A stretch of DNA of 64,000 nucleotides from Microvirga thermotolerans. GTDB taxonomy: Bacteria; Pseudomonadota; Alphaproteobacteria; Rhizobiales; Beijerinckiaceae. Within the stretch, counting starts at the first letter, position 1. Each line of letters begins with the position of its first letter. The stretch is from the NCBI RefSeq assembly GCF_009363855.1, contig NZ_CP045423.1:248001-312000 (forward strand). The letters are read 5' to 3'. The notes under the pieces are model-generated. The model did no database searches, was not told the origin of the DNA, and saw nothing but the letters and a program-made list of their open reading frames with translations. The position numbers and the translations under genes are program-made. Positions 55,629-58,911 of the stretch are shown piece by piece.

Positions 55629-55751
55629 TTCCTCGTCACACCGTCATGAATGAAAGACGCGGCTTGCGCCGCAGGGCTGGCGCGGACTAGGACACAGCTC
55701 ACCCGCGCGGTCAACGGCTTCGCGCGCGAGAATGGCGTGCAGAGGAATCAT

Positions 55752-56432
55752 ATGAGCGACACCAACCCCGTCGAAGGCCTCGGGCAGGTCCGCGCCGGCA
55801 TCGCCCGGGCCGCCGCCGATTACGGGCGCGATCCCGCCTCCGTCACCCTCGTCGCCGTCTCCAAGACCTTCCCGGCGGAGGCCGTCGAGCCGGTGCTCGC
55901 CGCCGGCCAGCGGGTCTTCGGCGAGAACTACGTGCAGGAGGCCAAGGCCAAGTGGCCCGCCCTGCGCGAGCGCTATCCCGGCGTGGAGCTCCACCTCATC
56001 GGCCCGCTCCAGTCCAACAAGGCGAAGGAAGCCGTGCAGCTCTTCGACGCGATCCACACCCTCGACCGGCCCTCGCTCGCCGAGGCCCTGGCCAAGGAGA
56101 TCGCCCGGCAGGGCCGGGCCCCGCGCCTCCTGGTCCAGGTCAACACCGGCGAGGAGCCGCAGAAGGGCGGGGTGATGCCGGCCGAGGCGGACGCCTTCAT
56201 CGAGGCCTGCCGCACCCGCTGGGGGCTGATCGTCGAGGGCCTCATGTGCATCCCCCCGGCGGACGAGCCGCCCTCGCCGCACTTCGCCCTGCTCCGCAGG
56301 ATCGCGGCCCGGCACGGCCTCGCGACGCTCTCCATGGGCATGAGCGCCGACTACGACGCGGCGATCCAGATGGGCGCCACCCATGTGCGGGTGGGCAGCG
56401 CGATCTTCGGGGCGAGGCCGCGCAAGGCTTGA
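55752..56432 (+). CDS. PLP-homeostasis protein YggS (PROSC family)
   Basis: 226-aa single-domain alanine-racemase-fold protein that binds PLP and buffers its level; no catalytic activity is known. PLP-Lys in LVAVSKTFPAEAV (Lys37 region), FGENYVQEAKAKW, HLIGPLQSNKAKEAV, LSMGMSADYDAAIQMGATHVRVGSAIFG. The ATG at 55752 has AGAGGAA upstream. Divergent from leuS. A CATGCCGG/CCGGCATG inverted repeat (56444-56472) follows, without a T-run. Confidence 0.93.
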   Translation: MSDTNPVEGLGQVRAGIARAAADYGRDPASVTLVAVSKTFPAEAVEPVLAAGQRVFGENYVQEAKAKWPALRERYPGVELHLIGPLQSNKAKEAVQLFDAIHTLDRPSLAEALAKEIARQGRAPRLLVQVNTGEEPQKGGVMPAEADAFIEACRTRWGLIVEGLMCIPPADEPPSPHFALLRRIAARHGLATLSMGMSADYDAAIQMGATHVRVGSAIFGARPRKA

Positions 56433-56535: not shown

Positions 56536-56817
56536 GAAGGAGGGCTGCATGTGTGAAGCGATGCATCTACGCATGTTCGGCCCCTGGCAGGCCCTGCAGC
56601 AGCTCGTTGCAGGGCGGACCACGGCACGGATCTGACGCGACGACCCCTCCCGGCATCCCGCCGGACACGAACCCGAAGGCGTCCGTCCTCCTCTCTCGAT
56701 CTGGTCTGCTCCGAACGGCTTTCGCGCGCCCGAGCCTCCGCGGCCCCGGCTGCGCCCCGCCTCGTTCACGCCTTCGCGCTGGGCCGACGCGCCCGCGCCC
56801 GACCGTCGAGACAGATC
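56536..56817 (+). promoter_or_regulatory. Attenuation-type leader of the ABC-F gene
   Basis: Contains an optimal SD (AAGGAGGG, 56536-56543), a 28-codon leader ORF (56549-56635), a perfect hairpin inside it (GCCCTGCA 56591-56598 with TGCAGGGC 56608-56615), and GATCTGGTCT (56698-56707), which can pair, with one bulge, with AGACAGATC (56809-56817) immediately before the ABC-F ATG. The ABC-F gene itself has only a weak SD. The layout fits ribosome-stalling control of initiation or elongation. Confidence 0.5.
56549..56635 (+). CDS. Putative 28-aa leader peptide upstream of ABC-F gene
   Basis: ATG 56549 to TGA 56633-56635. Starts MCEAMHLRMFGPWQALQQ and ends RTTARI. It has the strongest ribosome-binding site in the region (AAGGAGGG, 5 bases from the ATG) yet leads only to a 28-codon frame and a long gap, which suggests its translation is regulatory. 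No known leader-peptide sequence is recognised from memory. Confidence 0.55.
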   Translation: MCEAMHLRMFGPWQALQQLVAGRTTARI

Positions 56818-58335
56818 ATGGGCTCCATCGGCCTCCGCAACGTTTCCGTTCTCACTCCCCATCCTCTCTTCCGCAACCTCACGCTCACCGTCGGCCGGGG
56901 CGACCGCCTCGGGATCGTCGCCGGCAACGGGTCCGGCAAGACCACGCTCCTGCGCTGCCTCGCCGGCCTCGCCGAGCCGACGGAGGGGGACGTCGTCCGC
57001 TCCCGCGGCCTGCGGATCGGCTTCGTCCCCCAGGCCGTGCCGGAGGAGCTTCTCGGCCTCTCGCTTCGGGACGCCGTCCTGAGCGGCCTCGATCCCGCGG
57101 ATCGCGCCGGCAGCGGCTGGCGGGCCGACATCGTCCTCGACGAATTCGGGGCGCCGGAGCCGATGCGCGTCCAAGCCCTGCGCGCGCTCAGCGGCGGCTG
57201 GCAGCGGCTCGCCCTGATCGCCCGCGCCTGGGTGGCGGAGCCCGACGCGCTCCTCCTCGACGAACCCACGAACCACCTCGACCTCGAAAAGCTGTTCCTG
57301 CTGGAGCGCTGGATCCGCGAGGGTACCGGCGGAGCGGCGGTGGCGGTCGTGAGCCACGACAGGAGCTTCCTCGATGCCTGCACGACGAAGACCCTGTTCC
57401 TCCGGCCGGACACGTCGGTCGTCTTTTCCCATCCCTACGGCCGCGCAAGGATCCTGCTCGCCGCGCAGGATGCGGCCCTCGCCAACCGCAACGAGAAGGA
57501 CCGGCGCGAGATCGGGCGGCTGCGGCAGAACGCGGGGGAGCTGCGCAACGTCGGCGTCAACAGCGGCAGCGACCTTGCGCTGACCAAGGCGAAGCAGCTC
57601 GGGAAGCGTGCCGATGCGCTCGAGGAAAGGCTGAAAATCCTGCACCGGGACCGGCCGGGCGAGGTGAGGCTCGCGAGCCGCGAGACCCATGCGCGCGTCC
57701 TGCTGCGCATCGGGAACCTGACCGTGAACAGGCCCGACGGGGAGGTGCTGTTCCATGTCCCGAAGCTCGACGTGGCCCAGGGCGAGCGCATCGTCGTGCT
57801 GGGACGCAACGGAGCCGGGAAGTCGCAGTTCGTCCGCCTCCTTCATCGTGCAGCGTCGGATCCCGACGCATGCTCCGACATTCGCGTCGGCCCGAGCGCC
57901 GTCCTGGGCTACATGGACCAAGACCTGTCGCAGATCCCGGAGCGGGAGACGCCGTTCGGCTTCGTCCTGTCCGCCTTCCGGCAGGGCGACCGGCAGACCA
58001 CGGCGCTGCTGGCGGAGGCGGGCTTCTCCATCGCGCAGCAGCAGCGGCCCGTCGGGACCCTTTCCCCCGGCCAGAAGGCGCGGCTGGGACTCCTGGCCCT
58101 GCGGCTCGCGCGGCCGAACCTCTTCCTCCTCGACGAGCCCACGAACCACCTGGACATCCCGGGGCGGGAGGCCTTGGAGGAGCAGCTCCTCGCGGCCGAC
58201 GCCACCGGGATCCTGGTGTCGCACGACCGCCGCTTCGTCGCGGCGGTCGGCACGCGCTTCCTCGCCGTGGAAGGGAGGAGGGTGCGGGAGGTCGCCTCTC
58301 CCGAGGCGTTCTACGCCCGGATCCAGGCCGGATAG
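56818..58335 (+). CDS. ABC-F family ATPase
   Basis: 505 aa with two ABC domains and no membrane helices. Domain 1: Walker A GNGSGKTT, signature LSGGWQRLAL, Walker B ALLLDEPTNHLDLE. A linker of about 100 residues (YGRARILLAAQDAALANRNEKDRR.., helical and charged) joins domain 2: Walker A GRNGAGKSQF, signature LSPGQKARLGL, LFLLDEPTNHLD. ABC-F proteins act on the ribosome: housekeeping (EttA-like) or antibiotic-resistance (ARE). Neither group is clearly matched; the attenuation-like leader favours drug or stress induction (inference). Domain 2 lacks the full canonical LSGG. Confidence 0.88.
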   Translation: MGSIGLRNVSVLTPHPLFRNLTLTVGRGDRLGIVAGNGSGKTTLLRCLAGLAEPTEGDVVRSRGLRIGFVPQAVPEELLGLSLRDAVLSGLDPADRAGSGWRADIVLDEFGAPEPMRVQALRALSGGWQRLALIARAWVAEPDALLLDEPTNHLDLEKLFLLERWIREGTGGAAVAVVSHDRSFLDACTTKTLFLRPDTSVVFSHPYGRARILLAAQDAALANRNEKDRREIGRLRQNAGELRNVGVNSGSDLALTKAKQLGKRADALEERLKILHRDRPGEVRLASRETHARVLLRIGNLTVNRPDGEVLFHVPKLDVAQGERIVVLGRNGAGKSQFVRLLHRAASDPDACSDIRVGPSAVLGYMDQDLSQIPERETPFGFVLSAFRQGDRQTTALLAEAGFSIAQQQRPVGTLSPGQKARLGLLALRLARPNLFLLDEPTNHLDIPGREALEEQLLAADATGILVSHDRRFVAAVGTRFLAVEGRRVREVASPEAFYARIQAG

Positions 58336-58360: not shown

Positions 58361-58810
58361 CTATCGTCCGGCCCGCAGGCGCTTCTCGATCTCGTATACG
58401 GGATGGCGGGTGAGGTCCTTGTCCACCTCCGCCACGATACGGGTCTTGAAGGGCGCGGAGAACCGCTTGCGCAGCTCCGCCAGCGTCCGCGGCGGCGCGG
58501 CGACGATCACGGCCTTGGCCCGGGCCGCGGCCTCCTCGAACGCCTTCGCCACGTCGCCGGCGAAGCGGATCTCGGCAAGGTCGTGCCAATCGGTCTCGCC
58601 CATGGCGCTGCGCTGTCCGCCCGCCGCGAAGGCGCGCCCCGGCCTGTCCGTGCCCTGTTCGGCGGTGGACGGGTTGTCCGGCGCCTCCAGGACCCTGTCC
58701 ACCGTCAGGTTCCAGTCGACCTCGTTGCCGGCATTCCTCAGCAGCAGGGCCTTCCGCCCATCGCTGACGAGCACCATTCCCTCGTGGGGCAGCTTGAGAC
58801 GCTCGGTCAT
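58361..58810 (-). CDS. Host-attachment family protein (baeRF/AtsE-like)
   Basis: 149 aa. Matches the 'protein required for attachment to host cells' family: MVLVSDGRKALLLRNAGNE near the N terminus, a central GTDRPGRAFAAGGQRSAMGETDWHDLAEIRFA block, and C-terminal LAELRKRFSAPFKTRIVAEVDKDLTRHPVYEIEKRL. The fold is related to archaeal/eukaryotic release factor domain 2 (baeRF). The attachment role comes from an Agrobacterium mutant; the biochemical role is unknown. Convergent with the ABC-F gene. Confidence 0.8.
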   Translation of the reverse strand: MTERLKLPHEGMVLVSDGRKALLLRNAGNEVDWNLTVDRVLEAPDNPSTAEQGTDRPGRAFAAGGQRSAMGETDWHDLAEIRFAGDVAKAFEEAAARAKAVIVAAPPRTLAELRKRFSAPFKTRIVAEVDKDLTRHPVYEIEKRLRAGR

Positions 58811-58911
58811 GGAAGTGAGCTCCGTTCCGTTAGGGAAAGAGCTTATCACGCGTCAGTCCCGCAGAGGGGAAAAGGAGACGCGGGCTCGGGTCGCACCCGG
58901 ACGCCCCTGCC

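Follow-up and report, generated by a model that had tools for sequence, protein, structure and literature searches.

A conserved Gly-Pro leader ORF and a predicted ermC-like translational attenuator precede an accessory ABC-F gene in Alphaproteobacteria

The ABC-F gene studied here is preceded by a short leader ORF, and the locus raises the question of whether ribosome stalling on that ORF controls the gene, as an earlier note on this DNA had proposed. The window, i.e. the whole stretch of 64,000 nucleotides that was analysed, comes from a 3.82 Mb, single-contig genome of the genus Microvirga, and the leader lies between a YggS-family gene (55650-56432) and the ABC-F gene (56818-58335, forward strand). 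All leader elements are on the forward strand. The Shine-Dalgarno sequence (SD) of the leader ORF, AAGGAGGG (56537-56544), has its GGAGG 5 nt from the ATG (56549) of an ORF of 28 codons plus TGA (56549-56635), which encodes the peptide MCEAMHLRMFGPWQALQQLVAGRTTARI and is homologous to the ORF in 91 distinct leaders; the Gly-Pro codons, the proposed arrest site, occupy 56579-56584. Inside the ORF, the hairpin GCCCTGCAG..TTGCAGGGC (in full GCCCTGCAGCAGCTCGTTGCAGGGC; 56591-56615) joins segment 1, its 5' arm (GCCCTGCAGC, 56591-56600), to a 3' arm (GTTGCAGGGC, 56606-56615) through 10 pairs, a longer stem than the 8 bp first reported. Segment 2 in Microvirga is formed by the end of the leader ORF and its stop codon (CGGATCTGAC, 56627-56636); outside Microvirga, segment 2 is the 3' arm of the hairpin itself, which there reaches as far as the stop codon (GGGCTGACC). 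Segment 3, the anti-RBS arm (CTCTCTCGATCTGGTCTGCTCC, 56691-56712), pairs with segment 4, the RBS region of the ABC-F gene (GTCGAGACAGATC, 56805-56817), and is followed in the window by GAACGGC, at the place where most of the genus carries GGTCAGCTCTGAACGGC. The SD, ORF, hairpin, gap, ABC-F gene and pairing arm all lie where the earlier note had put them: the gap, given there as about 180 bases, measures 182, the weak SD of the ABC-F gene amounts to GAGA-type complementarity only, and the pairing with earlier leader sequence is that of GATCTGGTCT (56698-56707) with AGACAGATC just 5' of the ABC-F ATG.

Within the genus, a close orthologue of the ABC-F gene is present in 37 of 48 genomes, and before all 37 we found the leader, 221-297 nt 5' of the gene, together with the hairpin and the RBS-pairing arm, an arrangement that is far beyond chance. 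The leader SD, GGAGGG, is invariant in these 37 leaders, while the ATG, the hairpin arms and the GGTCAGCTCTGAACGGC block are near-invariant. The leader stop codon is maintained by means of TGA, TAA and TAG, and both indels observed in the ORF are multiples of three. A hairpin-like insertion of ~55 nt (GCATTTTC...GAAAATGC) is carried by seven Microvirga leaders (L008, L014, L018, L019, L021, L034 and L036), where it sits between the leader stop and segment 3 and leaves the four segments untouched; it resembles a small repetitive element.

A covariance model of the leader (R1), with the window sequence among its members, located a single copy in the genome of the window; an antisense match in the same genome is the palindromic hairpin and not a second leader. 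R1 matched 32 of the 397 genomes of the order, from 14 genera, and the 30 matches that were fetched as loci all have this ABC-F downstream. An exact pattern searched in 84,980 species genomes returned 61 loci, all of them alphaproteobacterial judged by title (Microvirga, Bosea, Aminobacter, Mesorhizobium, Devosia, Pelagibacterium and relatives), with the same ABC-F subfamily downstream in 59 of the 59 assessable ones. A second, class-wide covariance model (R2) detected the leader in other alphaproteobacterial orders, and the ORF and hairpin are kept from Microvirga to Rhodobacterales, the conservation in relatives on which the earlier note had staked its proposal. The 13 R2 matches with E < 1e-7 all precede this ABC-F, and none of the seven weaker matches inspected has it. 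Sampling 299 genomes of the phylum gave no strong match beyond the class, and no convincing leader was found before ABC-F homologues of 36-43% identity. We found no orphan leader before another gene, the apparent case (L203) having turned out to have the ABC-F, and among the confident matches checked the association with this one subfamily is exclusive. Four copies of the leader are on plasmids, including those of Ketogulonicigenium, Gemmobacter and Sinorhizobium meliloti M162. The last (L215, NZ_CP021819.1) has leader and ABC-F on pSymA, an accessory replicon of a model-species strain that makes a convenient genetic system.

Analysis of the leader peptide indicated that the ORF opened after the SD is in frame with Gly-Pro in 91/91 distinct leaders, despite an N-terminal stretch of variable length. 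Gly and Pro are retained in all 91 through differing codons (GGC, GGA or GGT; CCC, CCT, CCG or CCA), and an Arg three residues N-terminal to the Gly is kept in 88; one class-level outlier has Gln-Pro (QP) instead. In the Ala-Leu codons, which make up the hairpin arm, none of the six bases changes, as would be expected of an RNA arm and unlike Gly-Pro. A typical peptide outside Microvirga reads M-I-T-F-F-R-H-H-R-Q-R-G-P-V-x-A-L-Q-x-x-L-Q-G, with TGA right after the hairpin, and Microvirga leaders have RxFGP(W/G). Residues in the loop and towards the C-terminus change freely, and in five leaders (L127, L138, L143, L166 and L176) the stop codon falls inside the hairpin, indicating that translation far beyond Gly-Pro-x-x-Ala-Leu is unnecessary. 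Conserved residues with changing codons on one side and fixed bases on the other indicate that selection acts on both the peptide and the RNA. Macrolide +X+ arrest at RQR was rejected as a trigger: no +X+ is conserved in Microvirga, and a ribosome whose P-site lies at that motif leaves segment 1 uncovered.

The RNA pairings were then compared among species. In the leader hairpin (1:2), 232 of 232 cells are paired across 29 distinct hairpins, and double changes occupy 12 cells, at three pairs, vs 2.6 in shuffles (0/500 shuffles); UA is replaced by CG in 6 of the 29 sequences and GC by AU in 2. For the 3:4 duplex, the pairing of a leader with its own partner is more stable than with species-swapped partners (-19.4 vs -16.8 kcal/mol, z -9.0 for all leaders; z -3.1 in Microvirga and z -5.6 in the others), with P 2e-4 in 5000 permutations, a value that is indicative and not independent because the segments had been picked by eye beforehand and the sequences are related. 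Both the hairpin and the helix that sequesters the RBS covary, as the stalling proposal had anticipated. Complementarity to segment 3 is seen in segment 2 of both groups (GATCTGAC in Microvirga; GGGCTGACC elsewhere, mostly with a U.U mismatch); this 2:3 complementarity is conserved at 8 of 9 positions, and its covariation gave P 0.2, there being too little variation. Several MFE folds also contained a hairpin over the start codon of the leader itself, which was discarded since its pairing breaks where codon 9 is ACG or AAG.

To follow the predicted switching, the RNA 3' of a sliding ribosome was folded codon by codon, using secondary-structure energies, which leave aside protein factors and tertiary contacts. 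In non-Microvirga leaders, and only with the P-site between the Gly and four codons past the Pro, 2:3 rose from 0.5 to 5.0 pairs and 3:4 dropped from 10.6 to 5.7 pairs; with the ribosome before or after this stretch, 3:4 stands. The switching begins with Gly in the P-site and ends at about the Leu of GP-x-x-AL. Of these 53 leaders, all gained 2:3, 50 lost 3:4 and 47 opened the RBS, L078 being the clearest case, and the opening was abolished in a shuffled intergenic control (0.077 v 0.004). In Microvirga the shift towards 2:3 was computed for 32 of 37 leaders and that away from 3:4 for 29, with RBS opening in 16, so that the group as a whole has no net opening in the folding. The copy in the window switches weakly and late in silico, with 2:3 mainly at GP+3/+4. 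The stalling logic of the earlier note is partly supported, in that folding predicts an erm-like switch; the limited switching in Microvirga, and in the very copy for which it was proposed, is the chief reservation about this locus.

In our view the region probably acts as a translational attenuator of the ermC type, by which ribosome arrest at Gly-Pro controls an accessory ABC-F. By default the gene would be off: the leader would be translated to its end, or the 1:2 hairpin would form, and segment 3 would pair with the ABC-F RBS. A ribosome halted with its P-site on the Gly of Gly-Pro, or on one of the codons that follow, would cover segment 1, the proposed geometry being Gly in the P-site and Pro in the A-site, or a position a few codons later. 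Segment 2 would then be free to pair with segment 3, the RBS would be released and ABC-F would be made. From the patterns described above, we infer that ribosomes arrest at Gly-Pro and that the switch works in cells. The signal has about an even chance of being a drug or a natural peptide that targets the peptidyl-transferase centre (PTC) or the exit tunnel, which is the likelier option; soil bacteria produce compounds with such targets, e.g. phazolicin (PMC6783444). The next likeliest signal, an intrinsic stall relieved by the ABC-F itself, appears possible at a clearly lower level of confidence, and both options use the same RNA.

Arrest of the intrinsic kind defines a homeostatic version of the RNA switch, to which we give the same modest chance, where no drug is needed and low ABC-F or a general elongation defect would turn on the gene. 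It accords with Gly-Pro being the one invariant feature of the peptide and with a protein not clearly closer to resistance than to housekeeping ABC-Fs; furthermore, B. subtilis ABC-F proteins resolve stalls at proline-rich motifs (PMC11381351) and ABC-F resistance factors exert feedback on the leaders of their own genes (PMC12421871). On the other hand, EttA, Uup and YheS-like ABC-Fs are also encoded in the genome, and the gene is patchy in the genus (37/48 genomes) and sometimes plasmid-borne, a distribution that makes it look more like an accessory trait. Transcription attenuation by a terminator and antiterminator, as in vmlR and with the same peptide signal, would agree with the majority of described ABC-F leaders (PMC12421871, PMC9226507), but we regard it as unlikely: the stretch from leader to gene contains no hairpin followed by a T run, and hence no intrinsic terminator, either in the window or in L078, and the conserved helix covers the RBS instead. 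The only terminator-like site near the leader, at 56415-56430, belongs to the end of the upstream gene, and a Rho-dependent variant is conceivable.

Two further readings are very improbable. A riboswitch or a protein-binding autoregulatory site, with translation of the leader incidental, might explain why the GGTCAGCTCTGAACGGC block is near-invariant in Microvirga, but not the conservation of frame and Gly-Pro with changing codons, and no Rfam match supports it. We attach similarly little weight to the idea that the short ORF yields a trans-acting peptide and that the ABC-F is merely co-transcribed. Such a leader peptide is known in the same order, namely peTrpL of Sinorhizobium (PMC7298713), but here early stops inside the hairpin truncate the C-terminal half, or its residues change freely, while the RNA pairing is maintained, and the cis linkage to one gene is strict.

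The translational attenuator that we favour was next compared with known systems. In the classical erm scheme there are four segments, and 1:2 and 3:4 are replaced by 2:3. The present leaders have the short upstream ORF of that scheme with an apparently good RBS (an SD and in-frame ORF in 91 leaders) and the 1:2 and 3:4 pairings, with 3:4 over the SD or start of the main gene; the competing 2:3 helix forms in folding but shows no covariation signal, and opening of the RBS is predicted for most leaders outside Microvirga. They differ from ermC/ErmCL in that an ABC-F ATPase is controlled rather than an rRNA methylase, the hosts are Alphaproteobacteria, the Gly-Pro leader has no evident relation to ErmCL, segment 2 lies beyond the hairpin in Microvirga and the arrest is only predicted. 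In ermC, a ribosome arrested on the short leader ORF changes how the mRNA is folded, and the SD of the main gene becomes accessible (summarised in PMC10219788). The vmlR (B. subtilis, uORF MIN), vgaA, msrD, lmrC, are5sc and tiaA leaders are known from work on Gram-positive bacteria, and most of them act at the level of transcription (PMC9226507, PMC12421871). In the first five, as in ours, an ABC-F gene is preceded by an upstream ORF and by RNA that can fold in alternative ways, and SL-4 of vmlR also partly hides the SD (PMC9226507), but leaders of the vmlR type are mainly transcription attenuators of Firmicutes and Actinobacteria, and here no terminator was found. The vmlR and are5sc ORFs have three codons only, and stalling in are5sc and tiaA takes place on the start codon (PMC12421871), whereas our ORFs have 19-32 codons and a predicted stop ~8-14 codons in. 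The peptide peTrpL of Sinorhizobium meliloti, a leader peptide of the same order that is linked to antibiotics (PMC7298713), belongs to a trp attenuator, acts in trans and has no gene relation to the present leader.

Another parallel concerns the arrest motif itself. In SecM (...RAGP), arrest occurs with Gly in the P-site and Pro incoming. RQRGP and a switching window that opens with Gly in the P-site resemble this, while the present chain is much shorter, lacks the upstream motif of SecM and has another downstream gene, and Microvirga has RxFGP(W/G); the resemblance may serve as a lead and not as a test. No Rfam family reached its gathering score in the window, and five relatives gave only two weak, unrelated matches. 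The leader CDS is not listed in four annotated plasmid records, whose gene tables are incomplete, and an ABC-F survey does not mention leaders (PMC6723617). Literature searches returned nothing on this leader, which agrees with the earlier description of the peptide as unrecognised; as most subscription papers were outside their reach, undescribed here means not found by us.

Leader-ORF control of ABC-F genes has so far been known in Firmicutes and Actinobacteria, mostly as transcription attenuation. What we describe is most likely an ermC-like form that works on translation, has an arrest-type motif of its own and is conserved over several alphaproteobacterial orders. Its hosts include many soil- and plant-associated bacteria, among them symbionts with good genetics, and the leader provides a switch that is open to direct testing, a new candidate for an arrest peptide and a way into the function of an ABC-F subfamily claimed by no curated model.

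The protein of this subfamily encoded in the window has 505 aa, and Pfam ABC_tran covers two stretches of it, with no membrane domain. Its model (pLDDT 88) has a helical hairpin as interdomain linker (helices 207-249 and 252-273) and best fold matches to EttA, PoxtA, YbiT, VmlR2 and YheS; domain content and modelled fold together place it in the ABC-F family, as a divergent member. The protein falls short of every curated resistance model (275 bits vs 380 for NF000355) and is far below every Vga/Msr/Lsa/Sal/OptrA cut-off, so that a role in resistance can be suggested but not assigned. The resistance (ARE) label from NF000355 was rejected, because this model scores the EttA of the same genome higher (401 bits) and, in accepting EttA too, does not discriminate. 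Nor is the protein clearly nearer resistance ABC-Fs than housekeeping ABC-Fs, of which the genome also encodes EttA, Uup-like and YheS-like members. Leader-bearing ABC-Fs have in common the linker tip NIGINSGSD (NVGVNSGSD in the window), which is absent from a 42% homologue (L160) with no detected leader. A more speculative idea, which we hold tentatively and at less than even confidence, is that of nascent-chain sensors throughout the Alphaproteobacteria: the Gly-Pro arrest leader would monitor the PTC, the four-segment attenuator would control a previously uncharacterised ABC-F subfamily, and the linker tip would relieve the inducing arrest. Such a system would form a closed loop of feedback, or make resistance to rhizosphere antibiotics inducible. 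In another genus of the family (G124:C1:4767901-4768794 and 4833735-4834367), the ABC-F is in two pieces ~65 kb apart with an in-frame TGA and is probably a broken copy. In the window, a gene for a baeRF family 12 / Host_attach protein, a family with a release-factor-like fold, lies convergent with the ABC-F gene (58361-58849, reverse strand), and this gene also seems to lie beside the orthologue in locus L002.
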